Shown here: piece after piece, positions 821 through 61,812 of the stretch
Position numbering within the stretch: position 1 is the stretch's first letter
Layout: each line of letters opens with the position of its first letter
Assembly (NCBI GenBank): GCA_002716625.1
Contig: PBAS01000007.1
Coordinates: 1 to 64,000, forward strand
Origin: Phycisphaeraceae bacterium
GTDB taxonomy: Bacteria; Planctomycetota; Phycisphaerae; Phycisphaerales; Phycisphaeraceae
Length of the DNA: 64,000 nt
Direction of reading: 5' to 3'
Notes under the pieces: model-generated
Told to the model about the DNA's origin: nothing
Seen by the model: only the letters and a program-made list of their open reading frames with translations
The model's database searches: none
Made by a program: the position numbers and the translations under genes

Positions 821-839
821 ATTCCGAACCACTATTATA
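821..839 (-). promoter_or_regulatory. Promoter with recurrent TTCSGAA operator
   Basis: On the minus strand, TATAAT (834-839) is followed after three bases by GGTTCGGAAT (821-830), which would cover the transcription start. The first ATG downstream is at 802. The same -10/dyad arrangement recurs at several other gene starts in the window. Confidence 0.6.
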
Positions 840-853
840 AAAAGAGTATAAAA

Positions 854-884
854 AAAACGCGGCATCAAATACCGCGTTTTTATT
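854..884. terminator. Bidirectional intrinsic terminator
   Basis: A perfect 9-bp stem, AAAACGCGG (854-862) with CCGCGTTTT (872-880) and a 9-base loop, flanked by A and T runs. It ends the minus-strand unit carrying the gene at 902-1603. Confidence 0.85.
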
Positions 885-19093: not shown

Positions 19094-19100
19094 CTTAAAA

Positions 19101-19114
19101 TTTCGCATGCGAAA
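19101..19114. promoter_or_regulatory. GCATGC palindrome site 2
   Basis: TTTCGCATGCGAAA, just after the DarB-like stop and 50 bases before the next gene. Confidence 0.65.
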
Positions 19115-19135
19115 ATGTGGAGAGATTCGCTAGAA

Positions 19136-19150
19136 TTTCGCATGCGGAAA
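19136..19150. promoter_or_regulatory. GCATGC palindrome site 3 (variant)
   Basis: TTTCGCATGCGGAAA: same core with one inserted G, 35 bases from site 2 and 13 bases before the next ATG, overlapping its ribosome-site region. Confidence 0.6.
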
Positions 19151-19163
19151 CTTGGAGAGAAAA

Positions 19164-19580: not shown

Positions 19581-19584
19581 CCGA

Positions 19585-19600
19585 TTTTCGCATGCGAAAA
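19585..19600. promoter_or_regulatory. GCATGC palindrome site 4
   Basis: TTTTCGCATGCGAAAA, a perfect 16-bp palindrome 5 bases after the stop of the 138-residue gene; being downstream, it is not a simple promoter operator. Confidence 0.65.
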
Positions 19601-19614
19601 CTGAGCATTAAAGG

Positions 19615-19653
19615 GGGGTGTTTGTGGTGAACAGCCCCCTTGTTTTTTTTGGT
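19615..19653 (+). terminator. Intrinsic terminator
   Basis: A GGGGGGTGTT arm pairs with AACAGCCCCC (one bulge), followed by TTGTTTTTTTT. It ends the DarB-like operon. Confidence 0.75.
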
Positions 19654-23727: not shown

Positions 23728-25581
23728 TTATCGACCTGTTGCTGGTACGCTCATATCGCCCGTGCGTAACCACCATGCAAAATCAAATACACTCATGGCC
23801 ACCAGCGAACCAATACCATCCCAGCCCTCGGAATAGTTCGACAAATACGCTTCTTTCGCTTCACCTGCAGAATCAAAACCCAGCATTACTTTGTGTTCGT
23901 CAAAGTCGCCGTTGTCGTTCACTTGGTTCACGATAAAGACCTCTTTGCACTGCTGGTTGTGACCTAAAAATACATCAATCGGATCACCATCGGCCCCCAT
24001 CGTTCCGCTTATGTCACCGTAATGATTTTTTAGCTCAATGGACCATTGCTGGCCATTATCATCGGTACCCGCTCTTAAGCTGCCTTTTGGGTTCTCTATG
24101 GCAATCGCAAAGCCTGAAAATGTAAGTCGGCCCTTGCGGTAGTTCCCAGCTTCTTTTTGGGCGGCAGTAGGCTCTGGTAGATCGTTCTCTGGCGAAGTGG
24201 CAGCTTCATTCGCCATGCTATCAATTGATTCAAACATGAATCCAGCCTGCTGGCCGTCGCTCTCTAATTCTTGGTTAACGCGCCCTAAGATATCAATTAA
24301 AGTCGCTTGGCCACCGCCAAACATATCACCCATGGCTTGCCCTTGGTGCAACAACTCTTGGTTGATAGCTTCGGCCATAGCCTTAAATGCCGTCGCCATA
24401 CGTTTAGCGCTTCGATTATTGTTGGCAATGAAACGGGCCAAAGCTTCGGCCTCTGGATCGTTATCTCCGAACAAACCAGATTGCGCCAGTAGTTCGTCAA
24501 TGTTCTGACCTGAGTCTTTTGCTTGCCTTACTAGCTCAGTCGCTTTCACTAGTGATTCCAGTGCGTTCTCTGCCAGTGTCGGCTCTGACTGGTTGATATC
24601 AATAGCGTTAGCGACAAGGCCTACGGTTTGTTTATGCGCCTCCCCATTTAGATATTGCATTTCAACAAACGAACTGGCCGCACTGTTCATAGCATTTAAG
24701 ATATTGCGAATCTCTGGATCCGGTTCTTCGGACACAAGCTTAACCAGTTTTTCATTCTTATAGGCCTTGGCGAATACTGCGTTTTGCATACGCTCGATGA
24801 GCTGCTTAGTTGGGCGCCCATCTTCGGTAAGTAACCCAGCTGTTGAGTTATCCCCAATTTCAGTTAGGAAACTGTTTATAAAACCTTGGTTAGTTTGTGC
24901 GAGCAAGTTACCTGTTTCGCTTGGATTGAATAGAGCAATCATTTGGTCGTTGATGCGTTCAGCGTCCACCCACGCGGTTTCTGCAGCGCTCATTTGCTGC
25001 AAATCCGATAGGTTTGAATCACGGGCGAACTTAGCTCTATCGAGCTCAGTGATACGCTCACGAACCAGTACCGGCTCTTTCATGCTTTTAACGTCGTTAG
25101 CATCGAGATCAAAGCGTTCAGCATTATCAATCAGGTATTGGCGGTAGTGATCGGCTTTGCCTTGTTGGTAAGCACTGATCAACGCCATGGTTCGACCGTT
25201 GCCAGACTCCACCACGTTATCACCGCCGACAATTGGAGCACCATGGGAGCTTAGGCCGCTGTCAGTAAGCTGCTGCGGTCTTAAGTCGCTGGCCATCTTT
25301 GAGATTTGCAGTTTGGAAGATACGCGGGTGCGATCACGGGGCTGGAGCTCTTGAGGAAAGTCTGGGTTAATTCGACCATCTTGAGTGTTAGACGGCACCA
25401 AATCGGACGCTTCCACTAGCTTAAAGCCTGTTTCAACCTCATCACCTTTGGCTGTCACTACGTAGCTTGTACGGCCCGTGGATGGGGTAGGGGAGGGAGC
25501 CGATTCGGTTTGAGAACTTTTAACAATGTCACACAGCTCATTGATACTGGCTGCGGCGGCGATTTTTTCTTTTTTAGACAA
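23728..25581 (-). CDS. ddrB: DdrB-like polyvalent protein (ParB-like plus pyrophosphatase-like domains)
   Basis: About 617 residues, probably starting at TTG 25579-25581, which has GGAGG 5 bases upstream; the frame extends four codons further into that ribosome site. Residues 60-200 form a ParB/DdrB-like domain (PIVGGDNVVESGNGRTMALIS, with GNGR near 130). Residues 470-600 match the pyrophosphatase-like domain of polyvalent proteins (YRKGRLTFSGFAIAIENPKG, GADGDPIDVFLGHN). Polyvalent proteins of P1-type phages and conjugative elements are delivered with the DNA and counter host defences. A palindrome site lies 30 bases upstream of the start. FMFES near residue 450 resembles the proposed maturation cleavage site. 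Confidence 0.8.
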   Translation of the reverse strand: MSKKEKIAAAASINELCDIVKSSQTESAPSPTPSTGRTSYVVTAKGDEVETGFKLVEASDLVPSNTQDGRINPDFPQELQPRDRTRVSSKLQISKMASDLRPQQLTDSGLSSHGAPIVGGDNVVESGNGRTMALISAYQQGKADHYRQYLIDNAERFDLDANDVKSMKEPVLVRERITELDRAKFARDSNLSDLQQMSAAETAWVDAERINDQMIALFNPSETGNLLAQTNQGFINSFLTEIGDNSTAGLLTEDGRPTKQLIERMQNAVFAKAYKNEKLVKLVSEEPDPEIRNILNAMNSAASSFVEMQYLNGEAHKQTVGLVANAIDINQSEPTLAENALESLVKATELVRQAKDSGQNIDELLAQSGLFGDNDPEAEALARFIANNNRSAKRMATAFKAMAEAINQELLHQGQAMGDMFGGGQATLIDILGRVNQELESDGQQAGFMFESIDSMANEAATSPENDLPEPTAAQKEAGNYRKGRLTFSGFAIAIENPKGSLRAGTDDNGQQWSIELKNHYGDISGTMGADGDPIDVFLGHNQQCKEVFIVNQVNDNGDFDEHKVMLGFDSAGEAKEAYLSNYSEGWDGIGSLVAMSVFDFAWWLRTGDMSVPATGR

Positions 25582-25610
25582 TGTAGCCTCCAAAGTATGG
25601 AAGCGGCGAA

Positions 25611-25626
25611 TTTTCGCATGCGAAAA
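25611..25626. promoter_or_regulatory. GCATGC palindrome site 5
   Basis: TTTTCGCATGCGAAAA, a perfect 16-bp palindrome between the 46-residue gene and the DdrB-like gene, 30 bases before the latter's start. Confidence 0.65.
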
Positions 25627-25644
25627 CTTTTGAGCGGGGAGTTC

Positions 25645-47882: not shown

Positions 47883-50800
47883 TTACTCCAAGTCAGCGCT
47901 TTGGCGCTGCAGTGAATGATCGTTAAAGTTGTTTGGAATAGCCCCCGTGCTCTTACTTGTTGATGCTGGAGTACTGTCTTTCGCTTTCACTGGACCGCCG
48001 TATCGGTAGATCTCTTTGGTGTTGGTACCACCAGCGGCCTTGCCGACCTCTTTGATGGCATCAAGAGACGCCTTATCGAGCGTGACCTCTTGCTTGCTGG
48101 ATTCACTTTTCAACTTCTCCGCGTCACGTTGTGCATAAATCTGGTTAACACTTTCGTTTTGGGCGATCTGATTAGTCGCCGTGGCCACGGTCTGGGTTGA
48201 GGTAGGCTGAGAAGCTTGCGCTACGTTCTTGGCTTGGCTCTGACGGCTTTGGCGCTCGATGAATGCCACACTGTTAGCCAGCTGGGTGTCTGCGCTGGTT
48301 TCAGTGTTATCACTGATAGATTTCATCGACTCCAGCTGTTTGGAGCGATCCACTTCGCTTGCTTCGGTCTGGGCCGTATTGCTTTGTGATTCCGTTGCTA
48401 GCTGGTTGGATTTTTCAATGGCTGTGCTAACACTCTCAAGCTGAGCGGCAGCTGCAGTGTGTGAAGCTTGGGTTACTTCATTGCTCATTACCGTGCGTTC
48501 ACTGATCGCCCCAATGCTTTCAAGTTGCTTGTCTACATTGCTTTGAGAGGCTTGAACCGTTGAGCTTTGTGATGTGCTCTGGCTTGCGCTTTCCAATGCT
48601 TTGCTTACGCTTTCTACTTGATTGTTTTCTGCAGAGGTTTGGCTCGCTTGGCTGGTGGATTGATCGCTGCTTCGCTCGATGAGCTGGCTATCGTTCTGCT
48701 TTGAAATTTGGCTGTCAGATTGGCTGTCGCTTTGCTGTGACGCCTTTTCAAGCGCGTTGCTAATGTGACTTACCTCATTTGCACTCGTCGCCTGTGAGGC
48801 CTCGCTGGTGCTGCTGGTTGCCTGTGTTGTTTCGTTGATGCCTTGAGCTCGAAGTTCAGAACGTTCGCGTGCTGATAACTGGCTTCGTGAGTCACTAGCT
48901 GTATGGCTCTCTTGTGTTCCAGTTTCGCTGCTACGTTCTTTCGCTTCGGTGGCCACATCACTTGAGCTCACAACATGCTGACGTTCTGCCGCTTCGATAG
49001 CATGGGTAGACTGGCGATCTCTCACTTGTTCAGTCGAGCTTTGATCACTTGACGCTTTCTCTTGCGCTTCGCTTACTAGTGACGACTGGCTACGTTCACT
49101 GCTTGAGCTTTGAACCTTATTACTTTGGCTTGATGCTTCGCTTTGAGTGGCTTGATGTGCGCTTTCGGAGACAGAAACCACCGAATCTATCTGGGAGTCA
49201 GACGCAACTTGTACAGCTTCGCTATGAGTACCGGTTTGATTGTTTTCGGAGCTTTCAGAGCGAGCGTTAACTTGCTCACTCTCTGTTGAGCTTTGCTCGC
49301 TGGTTTGCCCTGACTTATCCACGGTTGACGCGCTAGTACCATGAGTTGAAACAGACGACGCTTGGCTATCAACATGATCCGAGGCTGCAATCTCACTTAC
49401 TATGCTGACGCTTTCAGCTTGTGTTAAATCTTGAACCTGACTCGCTTCACTCGCGCTTGAGCTTTGTAATGAATCCAAGCCCGTGGTTGCCTCGATACGT
49501 TCGCTTTCTGCTGTTGTGTCGACACTGTTTGAATTGCGTTCATGCGTTGTGCCATCCGTCTTAGATGACTGCTCAGAGGCTTGAGAACTAGCCGAGGATG
49601 CTTGGCTATCTGTGGTTTCGCTTTGGCTTGCGCTTTCCAAAATAGAGGCGGTGCTGGCCAGTGGTGTATCGATATTGGTGTGCTCTGCTTGGCTGGTACC
49701 TTGCGAGATTTTAGTGTTGATATCTTCAAGCCTAGAGGCTGTCTCGATATCAACAAACCCACCATTGGCGAATGAGCTTTCGCTGTTCGCTTCTTGGATC
49801 TTCGCCACTTCCTCACGGCGTTTGATTTCAGCATCGACAACGGCCAGCTGTGCTTCTTTCTTGCTGCTCGATACAAGATCACCGCGCTCTGTTGCGACCT
49901 TGCCATCAATCGGCTGACCGATCTCGGAGGACACACTCTCGCGCTTCTCTTTTAGCTCTTTGTCGCGCTGCTCTTTAACGCTTTTAGCTTGGTTGTAAGA
50001 AATCCCCTCTTCATTGGCAATCGCCCATGTAGCCTGCATTTGACTGTAGGCGTCGTTTTTCCTTTGGTTCTCTTGTAGCGTGCGGCTAGATTGGCTATTA
50101 CCAGTATTCATTGCGCTGTTGTGAATAGCTTCGGCTTTGAATCGTGCCTCTTCCTGCTCACTAAACGTTTTGGCCACGCTATCCTGATCGCTTTGAGTGC
50201 TAACTTGCTGGCTGACTGCAGACGCACTTTGAGTGCTTTCATCAGTGGTTTGATTGGCGTTCGTCGTGCTTTCGGTTTTGCTGTCGCTTTCAGTGGATTC
50301 ACTCTCGCTATCATCACCGGCAAAGAATGAATAAATGCCCTTGGCCATATCACCAGAGGTAAAGCTCATTGCTTCTTGCGCACCCTCAATCCCCAGCGCT
50401 TCAAGGCCAGAGCCGATTAACCCAGCACCACCGCTAACAAGACCACCCATATCAAGGACCGACGCTAGAGCCATACTAGACTTTTGCCCTGTGGTAGCTT
50501 CTTCACCCTCTTTGAGATTGAATGTTTCACGCTGACGCTCAGTGTCAGTAAATCCACTAAATGCGTCATAGGCCATTAACGCTGGAGCGAGTAAAGGAAC
50601 GGCTTTTGCGGCTACACCACCAATCTTTGAAAGACCTTTAAACGCGGTACCGGCCATAGAGGTTCCTTTGGCCATTAGCGAGGATCCTTTGCCAGCTGCG
50701 CTACCTGCTACGTCACTCGCACCGGACAGAACCGAACGAATACGGCCACCTCTTCGGGTACCCTTGGCACCTTTACCTTTGCGACCTCTTCGACCTTTGC

Positions 50801-52502
50801 GATCCTCTTTGTCACGGCCAAACATATCACCGGCCAGATCCATAAGGCCACCACCGCCATCCCCACCACTGGCTTTAACTGCACTTTCGAGATCATCCAG
50901 CTTATCGAGTAACGCCTCTGAATGGCTCTCTTGAGCGCTGCTGGTTTCTTTTAAGACCTCCAGCTGTTCGGCGCGAAATGACGCCTCTTTGGCTGTACTG
51001 GTTAGTGAACGGGTAGCGCTGCGATCAGTCGTGTTATTGTTTGTAGTAGTTGTGACTGAGGTAGTTGATGACTGTACGCCACCACGGCTATCAGATAGAA
51101 CGCTGCTAGTGGAATTAGTAAGCTTATGGTCGCGTTGTTGTTCATGCTTGCTCTTCTGTTGGTTGTTGTTGGTAGTATCACTGCTGCTCTCGCGCTCGCG
51201 TTTAGACTCTTCTGCAAGTTCACTTGCGGAAGTAACACTTTGCGACTGGCTATCTGAGACTTGATTAGACAGACTCTCGCTAACAGACGTTAAGCTATCG
51301 GAGTTGTCGGTTTGCTGGGTTTGGCTGGCTTGCTGCTGCAGCTGCTCTGAACTTCGTGTTGCTGTCGATTCGGCAAGGTGACTGTCACTATCACGGGATG
51401 CCTGATCACGACTCTCACTCAAGCGCTCTGTTGAATCGCTCTGGCCACGCTCGGCAATCGTATTGCTATCGCGTTCGCTTTGGCTTTCAGTGCTGCTCTC
51501 GCTATCGCTGGTGGATTCCTCTTCGGTTGAGGTATCACGCTTTAGAAACGTGTTTACAAAACCATTCTCTTTAACGCTTTGGATGTTTGAACGCGCTTCT
51601 TTAACGCTATCCATGCCATCTTGAGACAGCTTGTACATTTCCTTAGCTGAGTAGAAAAAGGATCCACCGGTTGCGGCCCCTGCAGCCTCTTGTGCATCAT
51701 GATCTTCACCTAGCGTCGATTCTGCTTGGCGCAGGCTCAAATCTTTGATGGCAGAGCTAAACGAGGCAAAGATCGAGGTTTGCTTTTCGCTCTCTTGGCT
51801 GCGCTTCTCTGATTCGCGTTCTTTGGCTGTTTCAGAGGCAGAGCTATAGCGCTCTTGCTCGGTTTTACTGGCGTACTTACCATCACTGCGGCGCAAACGG
51901 CCACCAGCATCTTTCCAGTAACCATCAAACTCCGCTAAACCGTCCTCAATGGCGGCCTTAACATCACTTGGAAGAGAATCAAGCGCTGACGTATCGAGCT
52001 CGTTATCAATCTGAGGCTCAGAAACGTCTACATTAACGCTTGGCTGGCTCTCTGCAGAGACTTCGACTGGTTCAACGATAATTGGCTTGTCTTGCTTCTC
52101 GGTCGCCTCTGGGGCGCTCTCACGCTCATTGAGGACGTCAGCAATTGGCTTAACCATCGCTGCACTGTTCGGCTCTTCTTTTGCTTGGGCCTGTGCCGGT
52201 TCGCGGTCCATGGTCAGCTGTATCTCACCAGAACGTTGATCCGACTTAACACGGCGACCGCGTTGACGACGCTTTTCTTTGGTTGGCGGCTCGCTGCGTT
52301 GAGCGACTGCAGAATTGTCTTTTAATGCCTTTTCAATTGGTTTTGTATCGATGTTTGCGACGATTTCAGGCTGAACTGGTAGGCCAGACAAATTATCCAA
52401 CTTGTCTGCTATAGCCTGCAATTTTTTCAGCTCTTTGTCACTTGATGTTCGGACCACTTCAACGATAGAAAAGAGATCAAACTGTTGTTTTTTAGTGTCC
52501 AT
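47883..52502 (-). CDS. Tape-measure-like protein, extremely Ser/Gln/Glu-rich
   Basis: 1539 residues, lying between the chaperone/frameshift locus and gp25, the standard position of a tape measure. The N-terminal third and C-terminal half are dominated by Ser, Gln, Glu and Ala. The centre has a basic, Gly-rich RKGRRGRKGKGAKGTRRGG stretch (about residue 570) and hydrophobic helices (LLAPALMAYDAFSGFTDTE). At about 1.5 angstrom per residue it would span roughly 230 nm, a long contractile tail close to that of P1. The composition is unlike most tape measures, so the call rests on position, length and helical propensity. Confidence 0.65.
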   Translation of the reverse strand: MDTKKQQFDLFSIVEVVRTSSDKELKKLQAIADKLDNLSGLPVQPEIVANIDTKPIEKALKDNSAVAQRSEPPTKEKRRQRGRRVKSDQRSGEIQLTMDREPAQAQAKEEPNSAAMVKPIADVLNERESAPEATEKQDKPIIVEPVEVSAESQPSVNVDVSEPQIDNELDTSALDSLPSDVKAAIEDGLAEFDGYWKDAGGRLRRSDGKYASKTEQERYSSASETAKERESEKRSQESEKQTSIFASFSSAIKDLSLRQAESTLGEDHDAQEAAGAATGGSFFYSAKEMYKLSQDGMDSVKEARSNIQSVKENGFVNTFLKRDTSTEEESTSDSESSTESQSERDSNTIAERGQSDSTERLSESRDQASRDSDSHLAESTATRSSEQLQQQASQTQQTDNSDSLTSVSESLSNQVSDSQSQSVTSASELAEESKRERESSSDTTNNNQQKSKHEQQRDHKLTNSTSSVLSDSRGGVQSSTTSVTTTTNNNTTDRSATRSLTSTAKEASFRAEQLEVLKETSSAQESHSEALLDKLDDLESAVKASGGDGGGGLMDLAGDMFGRDKEDRKGRRGRKGKGAKGTRRGGRIRSVLSGASDVAGSAAGKGSSLMAKGTSMAGTAFKGLSKIGGVAAKAVPLLAPALMAYDAFSGFTDTERQRETFNLKEGEEATTGQKSSMALASVLDMGGLVSGGAGLIGSGLEALGIEGAQEAMSFTSGDMAKGIYSFFAGDDSESESTESDSKTESTTNANQTTDESTQSASAVSQQVSTQSDQDSVAKTFSEQEEARFKAEAIHNSAMNTGNSQSSRTLQENQRKNDAYSQMQATWAIANEEGISYNQAKSVKEQRDKELKEKRESVSSEIGQPIDGKVATERGDLVSSSKKEAQLAVVDAEIKRREEVAKIQEANSESSFANGGFVDIETASRLEDINTKISQGTSQAEHTNIDTPLASTASILESASQSETTDSQASSASSQASEQSSKTDGTTHERNSNSVDTTAESERIEATTGLDSLQSSSASEASQVQDLTQAESVSIVSEIAASDHVDSQASSVSTHGTSASTVDKSGQTSEQSSTESEQVNARSESSENNQTGTHSEAVQVASDSQIDSVVSVSESAHQATQSEASSQSNKVQSSSSERSQSSLVSEAQEKASSDQSSTEQVRDRQSTHAIEAAERQHVVSSSDVATEAKERSSETGTQESHTASDSRSQLSARERSELRAQGINETTQATSSTSEASQATSANEVSHISNALEKASQQSDSQSDSQISKQNDSQLIERSSDQSTSQASQTSAENNQVESVSKALESASQSTSQSSTVQASQSNVDKQLESIGAISERTVMSNEVTQASHTAAAAQLESVSTAIEKSNQLATESQSNTAQTEASEVDRSKQLESMKSISDNTETSADTQLANSVAFIERQSRQSQAKNVAQASQPTSTQTVATATNQIAQNESVNQIYAQRDAEKLKSESSKQEVTLDKASLDAIKEVGKAAGGTNTKEIYRYGGPVKAKDSTPASTSKSTGAIPNNFNDHSLQRQSADLE

Positions 52503-56455: not shown

Positions 56456-58033
56456 TTAGCGAACTAGGATTGGTTCACCGATTAATCGGCGGCCTGAACC
56501 GGTTGGACAGATAGACCAAGTGACTTTCCACAAGTCGATTTCGACTTGGATAATCTCAAAGGTCCATGGGGATTCACCGTCTTGCTCTGGGTCGCGTGGC
56601 GCTACCAGTGCACCCACAGTTTCGTAACCCTCAAAGATGGCTGTCATACCGTCTTCGATTGCTTTTTCTGTGTCGTCATCTGGACGGTGCTTGATGCGGT
56701 TCGCCAGTGCTACAAAGTCGCGAGAAATAGCGTCTGTAACAGAAACCACTTGTTCGAAACGTAGGTAGTTTTCAACCGGCGTCGACGTTAGAGAGTCATC
56801 AATGAACAGTGCACCGTTCTCGCTAACACCTAGTTTGTTAAGGCGTGCTTTGTACATTTCTTCAAAGTTAGGCTCTCCTGAACCACGTAGTGGCGTCAGG
56901 CCTGCACGCGAGATAACTGCACGCTCAACACCTGCCGGTGTGTAGTGCCAGCCACCTGTTGGAGAGGTCTTAGATACACCCAGTGCTTTCGCTGCGAACG
57001 CGATACCTGACGCGCCCCACGGACACTTGTTTTTGTACGTTGGACACTTCGCCGCATACGGCAAGTGAACGTAAGAGGCACGGTGGCAAGCTAGGTTTAG
57101 GCCTTGCTTGTGTGCTAGCGCTTGGGCGTGCGTTAGACGTGGGTTGATATCGTAGTAACCAGAGATACGACGATCATCACTCAGCTTTTGCAGCTTCTTC
57201 GTTACTGCGTCGTCGTAGCAGCTCAAACCACAAATGTAGTTAAAGCCAAGGACCGTAGAACGTAGCGCAGTGATCGCCGCGTCATAGTCAGAGGTCTTGA
57301 TAGCGCTTAGGTCGCCGTTTGAAGCGCCTGTAAACGCTGTTTCTGCCATTGCTGTTAGTTCAGCTTTAGCCGTTGCTGCGTCACATACACAAGATAGGTA
57401 CTTAGATTTCTGCTCTAGAACCGTCTCGATGTACGCCGTTGCACCCATCTGATCTTTTGCTTCTGGGTCGAATGAAACGATCCACTCTTCCAGAGTCGCT
57501 TTACCACCAGCTTCTTGAGTTTCTTTCAGCGTCAGCTTAAGCATGCCCTTGCCGTAAAGCTTCTCATCGACTGACTCGATAGAGACGCTACGGTTTGCTG
57601 ACTCAGCACCATCTTTAATGGCCAGAGCTAGGAACTCACCAGAGCCCAGATCAAGATCAGCGCTGTAAGCAATGGCTTCATTGGTGAATACCAATTTGTC
57701 AGCTGGCTTAGTCACTTTGATTGCTGGGAATGTCGCTGTTGCTGGAACAACACGAACGACTAGGCCGTCACCGCCTTTTAGTGCTTCCGCTAGGGTACGC
57801 ATACCGTCAGCGTGAACACCAAGGCTTGAATGGAATGGTTTACCCAGTACATCAGTTAGGTTCGCATCAGTAACGCGTAGTACTTCAAACGGTTTACCTT
57901 TCTGAGAAACGATAACACCAGCAAATGTCAGCTGGTTTGAACCACCACCACGCTTGGTTGTCGCGTCTGCATTGATTGGCGAAACAACGGTTTGAGCCAC
58001 GTTGTTCATTGCAAATCCAATATCTTTACTCAT
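56456..58033 (-). CDS. Tail sheath protein
   Basis: 525 residues. Family features include FAGVIVSQKGKPFEVLRVTD near the start, GGDGLVVRVVPATATFPAI, a FNYICGLSCYDDAVTKKLQK segment, and a C-terminal ENYLRFEQVVSVTDAISRDF...EIIQVEIDLWKVTWSICPTG typical of the sheath attachment region (domain IV). It contracts on injection. The start overlaps the HhH gene by 8 bases. It follows the capsid gene in a capsid-HhH-sheath operon. Confidence 0.85.
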   Translation of the reverse strand: MSKDIGFAMNNVAQTVVSPINADATTKRGGGSNQLTFAGVIVSQKGKPFEVLRVTDANLTDVLGKPFHSSLGVHADGMRTLAEALKGGDGLVVRVVPATATFPAIKVTKPADKLVFTNEAIAYSADLDLGSGEFLALAIKDGAESANRSVSIESVDEKLYGKGMLKLTLKETQEAGGKATLEEWIVSFDPEAKDQMGATAYIETVLEQKSKYLSCVCDAATAKAELTAMAETAFTGASNGDLSAIKTSDYDAAITALRSTVLGFNYICGLSCYDDAVTKKLQKLSDDRRISGYYDINPRLTHAQALAHKQGLNLACHRASYVHLPYAAKCPTYKNKCPWGASGIAFAAKALGVSKTSPTGGWHYTPAGVERAVISRAGLTPLRGSGEPNFEEMYKARLNKLGVSENGALFIDDSLTSTPVENYLRFEQVVSVTDAISRDFVALANRIKHRPDDDTEKAIEDGMTAIFEGYETVGALVAPRDPEQDGESPWTFEIIQVEIDLWKVTWSICPTGSGRRLIGEPILVR

Positions 58034-58442
58034 TGTTTGCCTCTTTCAGAGTTAAGTTGTTTGCGGCTAACTGCTTTTCAATTTCTTGAACACCAGCTGC
58101 AGCAATGCCTTTCACCTTTACAACGTCTTTCGCCGTCATAGCTGTGAGTTGGTCCAATGTCGTTACGCCCGAAGTCACAAGGGCTTTTTCTACGCTGGTG
58201 GTTAAACCAAGAGTGGAAATGCTTGCTGGATCGTCGGTACCGTCTTCGCTCTGTTGAGCTTCTTCCAGAGACGCACGAACGCTCAGCTCACCGTTTGGGT
58301 AAGCCTGTTCAAGTGCATTGAGGAAGTATTGGAAGTTGTGGACCGATACCTGTTGGTTGACGGCGCGAGCGCCAATCACGCGGCCAAGCAGCGTAATTTC
58401 GATTGGAGTGTGATTAGTGACGAAAATGATTTGTTCTTTCAT
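58026..58442 (-). CDS. Virion-operon protein with RNA polymerase alpha-CTD-like HhH domain
   Basis: 138 residues. Residues 76-132 (ISTLGLTTSVEKALVTSGVT, LDQLTAMTAKDVVKVKGIAA, AGVQEIEKQLAANNLTL) match the fold order of RpoA C-terminal domains (xLxLSxRxxxxLxxAGIxTVGEL, TxEDLxxIxxLGxKSLxEIxxxL). The N-terminal 60 residues are a beta-rich unit (TNHTPIEITLLGRVIGARAV). In alpha-CTD this module binds DNA and activators, but HhH modules also occur in structural DNA-binding proteins. Its place between capsid and sheath genes, with coupled translation, favours a virion or head-completion role. Confidence 0.65.
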   Translation of the reverse strand: MKEQIIFVTNHTPIEITLLGRVIGARAVNQQVSVHNFQYFLNALEQAYPNGELSVRASLEEAQQSEDGTDDPASISTLGLTTSVEKALVTSGVTTLDQLTAMTAKDVVKVKGIAAAGVQEIEKQLAANNLTLKEANNE

Positions 58443-58490: not shown

Positions 58491-60158
58491 TTAAGCCGCT
58501 TTCTTCGCTGGAGCTTCATTAATTAGCTTGAGGCGGTAGAAGTAATCTTCACCGTCATACGGGTGGATTTCACCGTAAGCCAATTCATAAAGTGTGTTGC
58601 TTGCTACAAGGTTCTTACCGATGCTGTGCGTGTACATCGTTGCAGCGATTGCGTCACCTGCTACGTAGCCTGCTTCTGAGTGAGAATCACCACGGCCATA
58701 ACAAAGCATTTCCATGGTGCCGATAACCACCGGTGCTTCGTACACTTTCCACATGCCAAATAGACGGCCTGCGTAGTGAATAGAGTTCTTCTGACGGTAG
58801 TTTGATGGAGTCACAAAGTATGGTGCGCCAAGCGTTTTCAGGATGTTCGCCGCTTGGGTGCCTGCGAAGATGCCGCGTAGGCCTGTTGTCTTCGTTTGTT
58901 GCAGGATCTTCGTAGAAATGTTCAGTAGCACTTCGTTTAGGCGCTCACGGTGCAGTTTCCAGTCTTCACCAGCTTCTACGTACAGGTTGAACGTTTCTTC
59001 ACGCTTACAAGAGAAATTCATATCGTTTAGGTGGCGAACTGATTTCTCTGCCGCTAGCGTGTTACGCATGTGAGACGTTTGCATTGACTTGATATCAATT
59101 TTGAATTCACGTTGCATTGTGAACATTGCTTGAATCGTTGCATCTGCAGCTACCGCGTTTTGACGTGGGCGCAGCGTCATTGAATCCATTTCATGTTCGA
59201 TAGTCGGGATAAGCTCTGGCTTCTTCTCGATATCGACTTCAAACTCAGCGTGAAGCTCAACACCTGTTGGTAGAGCTGTAGCCGACGCCGTAGTCACATC
59301 GATCTTGCCTTTCACGTAATCCACGTCACAGTTGAATACGATCTCTTCGCCAGACTGCAGCTTGTACTTGCCGCTCATCATGCCGCCTTTCGAATCCATA
59401 TCGCGACAAACGCGCTTACGGTCAACGAATAGAGACACTGACGTCTTAGTGAATGGGATTTCAAAGTCTGTGTGTTTGAGATCCGTTTTCGTACTGAACG
59501 TGAATTTCTTCTTAGAGCCGTCTGGGCGTTGACCGGCTGCGAACTCATAACGTTGGCGCATTGACGTGTACTGGCCAACCGTTGTTTGGTCGATTTCAGT
59601 ACCCACTTGGAAGTCACCGAAGTTAGAGCCTGTTTTACGGTACACTTTGAAGATCTCAACTTCGGTCGTGTTTGCAGGCATCATCGTTACTGCGTCTAGT
59701 GTTGCTGTTTCTAGCAATACAGGAAGAACGATACCCACCATACGAGCGCGAATTTCGACACCTTCTGACGTTGATAGTGACTGGCCAATCGACTCAAGCA
59801 TCATTTGACCCATGTTGCCGGAATTTGAACGGCCCTCTAGGCCCATCATGTTTTCCATTGTGCTGTACGCACTTGCTAACACTTCGTCGCGAGGCAGCTC
59901 ACCGTGAGATTTTTCGTACTCACGTAGTGCCGACTGCATGCCCGAAACAATACCGATGGATTGATCTTGAGTTAGGCCTGAAAGCATTGAGTCTTTGCTG
60001 ATCGCTTCCAGCATTGCGTCTGCACGCTCGCCATCGTCTGTTAGAAAGACGCCGGTTTGCGCGTTGAATTGCGAATCAAGACATAACGCACGCATAGATT
60101 GACTTAGCTCTGCGATTTTGGAAATTCGCTTGTTAAATGATTCTTTTTTATCTGACAT
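58491..60158 (-). CDS. Major capsid protein with cleaved prosequence
   Basis: 555 residues, T4 gp23-like in layout: an N-terminal delta/prosequence ending at MMLES (119-123) and likely cut after Glu122; an earlier site MLEA is at 49-52. The mature part begins SIGQSLSTSEGVEIRARMVG, then GIVLPVLLETATLDAVTMMP. A long E-loop/P-domain region, DSMTLRPRQNAVAADATIQA, and TTGLRGIFAGTQAANILKTL follow. The promoter upstream (TTTAAC at 60224-60229, TAATGT at 60202-60207) carries the recurrent dyad. It forms the icosahedral shell. Confidence 0.9.
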   Translation of the reverse strand: MSDKKESFNKRISKIAELSQSMRALCLDSQFNAQTGVFLTDDGERADAMLEAISKDSMLSGLTQDQSIGIVSGMQSALREYEKSHGELPRDEVLASAYSTMENMMGLEGRSNSGNMGQMMLESIGQSLSTSEGVEIRARMVGIVLPVLLETATLDAVTMMPANTTEVEIFKVYRKTGSNFGDFQVGTEIDQTTVGQYTSMRQRYEFAAGQRPDGSKKKFTFSTKTDLKHTDFEIPFTKTSVSLFVDRKRVCRDMDSKGGMMSGKYKLQSGEEIVFNCDVDYVKGKIDVTTASATALPTGVELHAEFEVDIEKKPELIPTIEHEMDSMTLRPRQNAVAADATIQAMFTMQREFKIDIKSMQTSHMRNTLAAEKSVRHLNDMNFSCKREETFNLYVEAGEDWKLHRERLNEVLLNISTKILQQTKTTGLRGIFAGTQAANILKTLGAPYFVTPSNYRQKNSIHYAGRLFGMWKVYEAPVVIGTMEMLCYGRGDSHSEAGYVAGDAIAATMYTHSIGKNLVASNTLYELAYGEIHPYDGEDYFYRLKLINEAPAKKAA

Positions 60159-60445
60159 GAAATAAACCTTAGTTACTTTTTAAAAAAGCTGTTCGGAATG
60201 AACATTAGCCACCTGCATGCGGCGTTAAAATTGTTCAATTTCCGATAGTAATTAAGATTTAAACTGAAAAAAATAGCCCGATTTTGTGCTTTAACTTATT
60301 GTAATTAAAAGAAAAGTTAACAAAAGGTAGGGGTTGATTAACAGGTAACTGTGAGAGGGGGTTTGATGGCTGATCGGATGACGATGAGGTTTTTAGATGT
60401 GGGCGGGGAACCCTGATTAAAAAAATCAAAAAAAAAATTACGAGA
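60159..60445. other. AT-rich intergenic region, no gene seen
   Basis: A 287-base gap between capsid and holin. It holds the capsid promoter/operator (60191-60229), a CGGGGAAC octamer (60404-60411) and long A and T runs (60420-60440). No open frame is credible. Confidence 0.7.
60191..60229 (-). promoter_or_regulatory. Capsid promoter with TTCSGAA operator
   Basis: Minus strand TTTAAC (60224-60229), 16-base spacer, TAATGT (60202-60207), then after two bases ATTCCGAAC (60191-60199) over the expected transcription start. Confidence 0.6.
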
Positions 60446-60787
60446 TTAGAGCGTACCCGCAATAATGCCGACAAGGTGCTCTAAGAGCTCAGCAGAATCG
60501 ATAGCTGCATCTGGGAGTTCGATACCCATAAACGCTGCCGCGATATCACGGATCACCCAGTTATAAACGCCAGTGATGGCCAAGGCCCACATGATCGCTG
60601 CGCGGCCTGTTCGTGCCAGTGGGTTGTTGCTCAGTGATGCGATGAGCTCCATTTTGACATGGAACTGTTGGCGCTCTTCGTCAGACGTGAACCATGAGTC
60701 ACCAAGTTCTTTGGTTTCTCGGATCACCTTGCTTAGTGAGTTGTTCGTGCCAAATAGGCCACCTAGTTTACCTAGTAGTGCTTTCAT
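60446..60787 (-). CDS. Holin-like protein (3TM GTA-type)
   Basis: 113 residues. An N-terminal basic, amphipathic segment (MKALLGKLGGLFGTNNSLSK), then two or three hydrophobic stretches (RAAIMWALAITGVYNWVIRD, HLVGIIAGTL). It resembles the three-TM holins that release gene-transfer agents and phages. It overlaps the amidase by 4 bases (coupled). It is a second holin candidate in this genome besides the lambda-S-like one; one may be a phase- or target-specific holin. Confidence 0.65.
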   Translation of the reverse strand: MKALLGKLGGLFGTNNSLSKVIRETKELGDSWFTSDEERQQFHVKMELIASLSNNPLARTGRAAIMWALAITGVYNWVIRDIAAAFMGIELPDAAIDSAELLEHLVGIIAGTL

Positions 60788-61335
60788 TGTGTTACCTCGT
60801 TTAGTACATGGTCGGCCAGCGCTCCAGCGATCACATTAGCTAGCTGCTCGCGTAGCGTAAGGCCCAGTTTTAAAGACTCATCATTTGAGAGAAAGAACGG
60901 CTCCAGAATCACCGCTGGCATGGCGGTTTTCTTTAGGAAGTACCAACCTCGATCCCCTTTCTTAATAGCCTTAAGGCCACGGTTTCGCTCATTGAGTAAG
61001 CCGTGAATTGGTGTCTGTAGTCGTGCTGCTAACGCTTTGCTGGCCTTGGATGTGTGCCAGTGCAACGTTTCAGCCCCTTTGGCGTTTTTGTTCTTCGCGC
61101 CGTTACAGTGAAGCTCGATAGCAAAGTCAGCGTTGGTGGCATTTACGTCTTTCACCATGCCGCTATAGCTTGAGCCTCGATACATGATGATCGGACGGAC
61201 ATTGCGGCTATGTAGACGCTCGGCAATGTGACCCGCCAATACATGGTTGAAGTCATATTCGTTCATTTCGGCGTTCGGGTTGTAACAACCGCCGTCAGCA
61301 TGACTATGACCCACAACGATACAAACAGTTTTCAT
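60784..61335 (-). CDS. N-acetylmuramoyl-L-alanine amidase (endolysin)
   Basis: 183 residues, Amidase_3 family. The zinc ligands and catalytic Glu are in their usual order: His10 (IVVGHS), Glu26 (MNEYDF), His76 (AIELHCNGA) and Glu145 (PAVILEPFFLSN). It cuts the amide bond between MurNAc and L-alanine. There is no signal peptide, so export needs the holin that follows. The promoter has TATACT (61372-61377) and the recurrent operator at 61361-61369. No cell-wall-binding domain is present. Confidence 0.9.
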   Translation of the reverse strand: MKTVCIVVGHSHADGGCYNPNAEMNEYDFNHVLAGHIAERLHSRNVRPIIMYRGSSYSGMVKDVNATNADFAIELHCNGAKNKNAKGAETLHWHTSKASKALAARLQTPIHGLLNERNRGLKAIKKGDRGWYFLKKTAMPAVILEPFFLSNDESLKLGLTLREQLANVIAGALADHVLNEVTQ

Positions 61336-61353: not shown

Positions 61354-61381
61354 TTGCGTTGTTCGGAATAGAGTATATAAT
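61354..61381 (+). promoter_or_regulatory. Divergent promoter sharing an operator with the lysis promoter
   Basis: Plus strand TTGCGT (61354-61359), 16-base spacer, TATAAT (61376-61381). The dyad GTTCGGAAT (61361-61369) lies in the spacer. The same dyad lies 2 bases downstream of the minus-strand TATACT (61372-61377) that drives the amidase. Confidence 0.6.
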
Positions 61382-61387
61382 CCCAAT

Positions 61388-61469
61388 CTCCTAGACATCC
61401 TTAATTAAGATATTTTCAGTTCCATGCTAACGGTTCTTTAGCCAAGCCTAACCCGCTTGGCTTTTTTTT
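61388..61469 (+). ncRNA. Candidate small RNA, about 82 nt
   Basis: A perfect -10 (TATAAT) upstream predicts a start near 61388, and a textbook terminator ends it: GCCAAGC (61441-61447), 7-base loop, GCTTGGC (61455-61461), eight T residues. No open frame is present. The RNA would be on the strand opposite to all neighbouring genes and would overlap only the last codon of the gene at 61468. Confidence 0.55.
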
Positions 61470-61470
61470 A
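61441..61470 (+). terminator. Terminator of the candidate small RNA
   Basis: A perfect 7-bp stem GCCAAGC/GCTTGGC with a 7-base loop and eight T residues on the plus strand only. It ends plus-strand transcription, although no plus-strand gene is present. Confidence 0.85.
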
Positions 61471-61812
61471 TTCTGCGTTTTCTACCTCAAACCCATTTCT
61501 TTTAAAATAAGTCTTTGTTGACGCCAGCGTCTTGTATGGAATCTCAAATGATGCCGAAACATTCCGGTTGTTAAACAGGTAAAAAATGCCACCTTTCTCG
61601 CTTGGTGAGACTCGAACCTCATCAAAAATCACATGCACCAAAGGACTTTTAAACATGGCCTTACCTGATTCGGTGTAGTTCTTGATTACAATAAAGCTAC
61701 GGTTTGTGTATGCCTTGCAGTAATAATTGAATGCCATGTATGCAGCGAATAAGGCTGCAGTGGTAGCAATAGCAAGGATATACGATGGAATAGTAATTAC
61801 CGTGTTAAACAT
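61468..61812 (-). CDS. Membrane-anchored protein, function unknown
   Basis: 114 residues. An N-terminal transmembrane segment (about 8-30: PSYILAIATTAALFAAYMAF) is followed by a soluble, basic beta-rich domain (VHVIFDEVRVSPSEKGGIFY, ASFEIPYKTLASTKTYFKRN). No lipobox and no Rz-like coiled coil were seen, so it is not an obvious spanin. Its own promoter has TACACT (61849-61854) plus the dyad at 61836-61845. It lies next to the lysis genes, which may hint at a lysis-control or membrane role. Confidence 0.6.
   Translation of the reverse strand: MFNTVITIPSYILAIATTAALFAAYMAFNYYCKAYTNRSFIVIKNYTESGKAMFKSPLVHVIFDEVRVSPSEKGGIFYLFNNRNVSASFEIPYKTLASTKTYFKRNGFEVENAE

Follow-up and report, generated by a model that had tools for sequence, protein, structure and literature searches.

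A candidate small RNA gene conserved beside the lysis genes of P1-like phage-plasmids carries a predicted phage-wide operator word in its promoter

Introduction

The OOP RNA of phage lambda is a short RNA (77 nt) read from its own promoter, pO, to its own terminator in opposition to phage genes; the promoter is tied to a repressor through a LexA site in the oop-pO sequence, and the RNA is antisense to cII (PMC5869508, PMC12197685). Phage-encoded RNAs of similar size can also act in trans: PreS of lambda (LPR1, ~88 nt) and VpdS of VP882 both favor phage replication, and VpdS acts in Vibrio (PMC12197685). In P1, 11 late promoters of the Lpa type have been reported, in which a 9-bp odd-centered repeat near -22 is followed by a -10 element before capsid and packaging genes (PMC10695390). 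P1 also has a regulator, C1, with many 17-bp operators over its genome, and a short regulatory RNA, C4, which is read from the promoter region of its own target, the icd-ant mRNA. P1 is a founding model of phage-plasmids, and many Vibrio plasmids contain P1-like elements.

Here we describe a candidate RNA of about 82 nt in a P1-like phage-plasmid contig. Like OOP, it is short, has its own promoter and terminator, lies opposed to phage genes, and has a promoter tied to a predicted repressor site; unlike OOP, it has no overlapping coding target, and its predicted control site is one of a set spread over the phage genome rather than a LexA site. As a candidate trans-acting sRNA it resembles PreS and VpdS in size and phage origin, with no known relation in sequence. 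A putative single phage regulator with many sites over the genome recalls C1, although the word concerned is a 9-mer; and as a candidate regulatory RNA of a P1-like phage it recalls C4, but forms a separate intergenic unit. The likeness of its promoter to the Lpa promoters is taken up below.

Results

The contig and its relatives

The window is the whole stretch of 64,000 nucleotides analyzed here, bases 1-64000 of a contig of 79,454 bases (hereafter C7) that agrees with viral contig IMGVR_UViG_2786546905_000002 in all stretches compared. By its tail sheath and its capsid protein (32% to P1 gp23), C7 belongs to the P1-like phages, as a phage-plasmid contig. By capsid protein comparison its nearest relatives are Vibrio plasmids, mostly circular, with identities of 76% in Vibrio sp. 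THAF64 and ~70% in V. alginolyticus, V. diabolicus, and V. campbellii. The assembly that contains C7 does not look gammaproteobacterial, judging from an RpoB that is about equally distant from E. coli and from other phyla; Hfq was not detectable in it and 16S was not found. Because of these features, and because the relatives are Vibrio plasmids, C7 is probably misassigned (misbinned), and its real host is likely Vibrio or a relative.

Several other features of these elements deserve mention. The protein encoded at window positions 58026-58442, between capsid and sheath, is kept at 40-54% in four relatives, and proteins related to it are annotated as RNA polymerase alpha C-terminal domain proteins; it may be either a structural helix-hairpin-helix protein or a transcription factor. 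A 1539-aa protein (47883-52502) contains long Ser/Gln/Glu-rich stretches, and its low-complexity part looks expanded because the THAF64 homologue has ~950 aa. The E. coli Chi word GCTGGTGG is strongly enriched in all five phage-plasmids, 9-mers that contain it occurring in 26-44 copies (2-3 expected) in four of them and in 17-18 copies in V. campbellii. The palindrome TTTTCGCATGCGAAAA is repeated at window positions 19094-19151, 19581-19639, and 25594-25644, and its core CGCATGCGA counts 11 in C7 and 26 in V. alginolyticus XWV9 (both strands summed); it is perhaps the site of a second regulator or a partition site.

A promoter and a terminator delimit an intergenic RNA

An initial annotation had proposed a divergent plus-strand RNA of about 82 nt, with a promoter and terminator of its own, where no plus-strand gene exists. 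This unit is indeed present, with an exact -10 element and a strong terminator (Table 1). The terminator reads AGCCAAGC-CTAACCC-GCTTGGCT-TTTTTTT, the last T of the stem opening the run of eight T. The promoter is absent from our default scan, which asks for four of six matches at -35 where TTGCGT has three; its weight-matrix score is 10.9, a level reached ~10 times in 79 kb (both strands) and also in 5% of shuffles of the intergenic region. The terminator is one of five strong intrinsic terminators in the 79,454 bp of C7 (none in 20 whole-contig shuffles), and one like it arose in 3 of 20,000 shuffles of that intergenic region. The other four follow genes in the same direction, whereas this one has no preceding plus-strand gene. 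An AT-rich intergenic stretch might by chance hold a TATAAT and a hairpin, and the frequency of comparable promoters in shuffled sequence allows for that; the rarity of the terminator speaks against it, and the recurrence of promoter and terminator in every lineage examined (see below) contradicts the chance reading, to which we give almost no credence.

Table 1. Features of the small RNA locus and its neighbors (positions in the window)
Feature	Position	Strand	Remarks
Major capsid protein	58491..60158	-	P1 gp23 homologue (32%); query used to find relatives
Second operator copy, upstream of the major capsid gene	60191..60199	+	Predicted; kept in THAF64 and V. alginolyticus-type relatives
Holin-like protein	60446..60787	-	phrog_3427
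N-acetylmuramoyl-L-alanine amidase (endolysin)	60784..61335	-	Divergent neighbor of the RNA
-35 element TTGCGT	61354..61359	+	3/6 match; aligns with TTGACT/TTGATC/TTGATT/TTGTAC/TTGCAC in relatives
9-bp near-palindromic operator GTTCGGAAT	61361..61369	+	Predicted; in the promoter spacer
-10 element TATAAT	61376..61381	+	Exact; spacer of 16 from -35
Candidate small RNA, ~82 nt	61388..61469	+	No conserved ORF; inferred start ~7 nt past TATAAT, end at the last T
CTAACGGTT	61427..61435	+	Like the core CTRACGTT of THAF64 and V. alginolyticus-type RNAs (by eye, suggestive only)
Intrinsic terminator	61440..61469	+	8-bp stem, 7-nt loop, 8 T
Small orphan gene	61468..61812	-	Stop codon abuts the RNA terminator

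The C7 RNA contains a single ATG, which opens a 5-codon frame. No reading frame is common to all RNA lineages when frames are compared across them, and the longest frames have no conserved start and run into the terminator. A search of Rfam with the RNA returned no family above the gathering cut-off, only weak matches (e.g., RF02278 with 21 bits vs. 50). The RNAs fold better than their shuffled versions in most lineages (z from -2 to -4), the C7 RNA having little structure outside its terminator (z = -1.97), and their terminators carry 7-9 U, a tail that would suit Hfq binding. With its own promoter, an intrinsic terminator, and no conserved reading frame, the unit has the makeup of an autonomous intergenic phage sRNA gene.

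The unit is conserved where the RNA body is not alignable

Because direct DNA searches found nothing (blastn of the C7 RNA against plasmids, and of the surrounding region against phages, gave no match), relatives were sought by capsid protein and synteny, and the corresponding intergenic region was then read. The resulting set comprised 15 distinct sequences in seven RNA lineages (C7; THAF64; two V. alginolyticus-type groups; V. campbellii; V. alginolyticus HNV2; and metagenome contig L017). All relatives read whose capsid identity reaches 62% have the RNA unit in the same position, opposite in strand to the lysis genes, and with one geometry: a -35 element, 2 nt (1 in C7), a near-palindrome of 9 bp, 6 nt, a -10 element, the RNA body (total RNA length 72-134 nt), and the terminator. 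The -35 element is good in six of the seven lineages. Broken promoters or stems in close relatives had been named as evidence that would count against the RNA, and the opposite was found, both elements being kept. More distant relatives (L007, L224, L225, and L226; capsid identity 41-57%) showed no RNA unit by the same terminator test. As an unbiased check, 2.9 million viral contigs were scanned for GTTCGGAAT-N6-TATANT, which gave at least 120 matches; among the 120 matches listed, five are followed within 170 nt by a terminator with a perfect stem, and each of these belongs to the RNA-unit family.

Ten unique V. alginolyticus-type sequences allowed variation to be compared between parts of the locus. 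The RNA body is variable at 6 of 76 sites and the amidase leader at 17 of 44 (Fisher P = 7e-5), with 0 of 6 variable sites in the -10 element and 1 of 9 in the 9-mer; the RNA body is thus clearly constrained relative to the leader within this group. Compared with third codon positions of the amidase (27 of 175 variable), the difference was not significant (P = 0.15). RNA bodies of different lineages are mostly not alignable. A core, CAACTRACGTTGA, is common to THAF64 and the V. alginolyticus types (one variant, L217); CTAACGGTT in C7 and CTGATCGTT in V. campbellii resemble it, a likeness that is suggestive only.

Retention of promoter and terminator over lineages whose RNA bodies mostly cannot be aligned would also fit a role for transcription itself, in which a divergent promoter with its terminator would serve to insulate the lysis genes or to modulate access of RNA polymerase and repressor, and the RNA would not matter. 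The constrained RNA body of the V. alginolyticus group and the presence of CAACTRACGTTGA in the THAF64 RNA as well speak against this reading, which we consider very unlikely. We regard it as highly probable that a real conserved sRNA gene occupies 61354-61469. It is not annotated in any of the ten plasmid records that contain a V. alginolyticus-type copy, and, to judge from its conserved arrangement, the RNA is very probably a previously undescribed phage regulatory RNA.

The lysis cassette next to the unit is modular. In HNV2 a glycosyl hydrolase 108 endolysin takes the place of the amidase, in L017 a non-amidase ORF does, and the RNA unit stays in both; the flanking holin, capsid, and small RNA are all kept at such swapped loci. 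Swap positions are 3297-3833 in L223 (glycosyl hydrolase 108) and 8796-9326 in L017.

The promoter faces away from the lysis genes

Promoter scores in the RNA direction are 10.9 in C7, 12.0 in THAF64, and 14.5 in XWV9, vs. 6.9, 1.7, and 5.5, respectively, toward the amidase; the conserved promoter of the intergenic region therefore belongs to the RNA and faces away from the lysis genes. The opposed -10-like TATACT on the minus strand is weak (6.9) and is not kept as a promoter, and a single bidirectional promoter for amidase and RNA was rejected for this reason. The initial annotation had the two promoters share one dyad, through which one protein would control both genes. What stands of this is a predicted protein-binding 9-mer in the spacer of the RNA promoter; a dyad shared with an amidase promoter finds no support, and neither does the proposed joint control, the site being one of 11-21 copies over the genome. 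The same predicted 9-mer site may nevertheless control the amidase.

The orphan gene on the far side of the RNA has distant homologues at the same location in relatives. A gene-strand terminator parts this gene from the RNA in THAF64 and the V. alginolyticus group, where the amidase therefore needs its own start; in C7, HNV2, and L017 none was seen in the interval from this gene to the amidase. The RNA is encoded opposite that interval, and it might base-pair with late mRNA extending from the orphan and baseplate genes into the lysis genes; cleavage or blockage of this mRNA would then delay lysis. Phage antisense RNAs against late or lysis genes, such as aQ and PAK_P4as15, are known (PMC12197685). 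However, the gene-strand terminator found in THAF64 and the V. alginolyticus group would leave few read-through transcripts as partners there, and the coding region of the amidase is not overlapped by the RNA. We consider antisense action of this kind improbable and place it second to action in trans.

The promoter carries the genome-wide 9-mer of each phage

The word GTTCGGAAT is the most overrepresented 9-mer of C7, with 11 copies against 0.3 expected under a third-order model and 0.5 in shuffles, and it is ~20 times denser there (11 in 79 kb) than in the rest of the assembly (21 in 3.27 Mb). Copies lie at window positions 821, 6583, 8778, 8825, 55165, 60191, and 61361 and at contig positions 69364, 71653, and 71754, and are mostly intergenic; the copy at 1523 is inside a gene. 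The same word ranks first among the 9-mers of THAF64 (21 copies) and in the top five of V. alginolyticus XWV9 (19 copies), while GTTCGTATT-type words take its place in V. campbellii and TTAGGAATT is second in HNV2. Each genome, with 11 to 21 operator copies, has in its RNA promoter its own version of the overrepresented 9-mer, or one base off. Because the word is repeated along each genome and varies as the genomes diverge, the RNA is quite likely wired to the phage's genome-wide regulator. Words of the GTTCGGAAT type would then make up a previously undescribed operator, distributed over the phage and changing together with its lineage. Most simply, each phage would encode a single DNA-binding protein whose regulon always includes the RNA. 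By Pfam/PHROG, the regulator candidates (candidates only) are a PadR-like and an HTH_3 protein.

Among 85 operator sites in five phages, 59% overlap a sigma-70-like promoter, vs. 10% of control positions, given approximate weight matrices and a word that cannot itself form a -10, so that placement in the spacer or at the start is partly forced. The sites center either near -22 or near +1, roughly half of them lying close to the start point. These positions fit steric repression but, given this forced placement, favor it only weakly.

The operator could instead be a late-activator site like that of P1 Lpa, in which case the RNA and the capsid gene would be late transcripts activated at about -22 and not derepressed. 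The P1 late promoters LP23, LPsit, LPhot, and LPpac have a 9-bp repeat annotated as the -22 region and a -10 element, with no annotated -35, and the phage 9-mers, likewise odd-centered near-palindromes, are often found at -20 to -25 and precede capsid, baseplate, and terminase-like genes. The Lpa word is, however, AAGTGACTT, and an Lpa homologue was rejected, phmmer over all ORFs of the five genomes giving none. The 9-mer of the RNA promoter does occupy a position that suits the Lpa type, but the RNA promoters have good -35 elements in most lineages, as noted above, and that of C7 also has a -35. A fixed spacing from operator to -10 was not seen across all sites, the spacing varying among them; besides the many sites at the start point, many others precede replication or early-type genes. 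We therefore find late activation doubtful, and repression rather than activation of the RNA promoter rather probable.

Two arrangements of operator copies stand out. A divergent control region at contig positions 71270-71833 has two copies ~100 bp apart, a spacing that recurs in THAF64, XWV9, and V. campbellii, and precedes a fast-evolving 120-aa protein, a very conserved phrog_8101 protein, and the PadR-like regulator; it is a candidate immunity or master control region. At window positions 821-870, and at 25395-25421 in THAF64, the operator is followed after 5 nt by TATAAT and, 6-7 nt further, by a start codon, which apparently yields a leaderless mRNA of a small protein and then an HU-like gene.

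No phage target above chance

Across 58 ortholog groups in five phages, duplex energies singled out no phage mRNA consistently beyond chance. The amidase came first, but only through inclusion of the antisense stretch in the region tested, and was rejected as a target on this account. The longest perfect complements of the RNA to its own phage genome equal those of shuffled RNAs. An overlap of the OOP type with a coding region was not found either: the RNA touches the stop codon of the orphan gene by 2 nt and does not reach the amidase. The suggestion that the RNA is a riboregulator of lysis thus finds no backing in complementarity, and the RNA persists where the amidase has given way to an unrelated endolysin; target prediction against phage mRNAs, likewise proposed at the outset, came out at chance level. 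By exclusion, and by analogy with PreS and VpdS (PMC12197685), we lean toward action in trans on host RNA.

Discussion

We propose that the unit encodes an autonomous phage sRNA that is probably under repression by the master regulator of the phage and acts in trans, probably through Hfq, on host RNAs, and we put the probability of this reading at roughly 0.6. The sequences themselves show the unit of promoter, operator, and terminator, its conservation, the constraint on the RNA body in one group, and the agreement of the operator with the overrepresented 9-mer of each genome; transcription, repression, action in trans, a role of Hfq, and targets are inferred from these. Sigma-70 RNA polymerase would start at ~61388 and stop at the intrinsic terminator, leaving an untranslated RNA of ~82 nt. 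A phage-encoded protein would bind GTTCGGAAT-type 9-mers throughout the genome, including the one between -35 and -10 of the RNA promoter, and would control this promoter, most likely by repressing it as a master repressor does other promoters. Once repression is lifted, the RNA would appear on induction or infection, and the free RNA with its U-tail would base-pair in trans, probably with host mRNAs or sRNAs through Hfq, in the manner of PreS and VpdS. That Hfq was not detectable in the assembly containing C7 speaks against this, although that assembly is probably not the true host.

Promoter, operator, and terminator may form a fixed "sRNA slot" beside the lysis genes, within which the RNA body turns over by lineage. 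We hold this idea only tentatively and think it less probable than not by some way; if true, the slot would be wired to a co-evolving master regulator, and the phage would swap its regulatory RNA to match host or rivals.

A conserved RNA under the global regulator of the phage would, if true, offer a direct handle on how phage-plasmids steer host expression or the timing of lysis, and the link between the overrepresented 9-mer and the RNA promoter may provide a route to the master regulator of this family.
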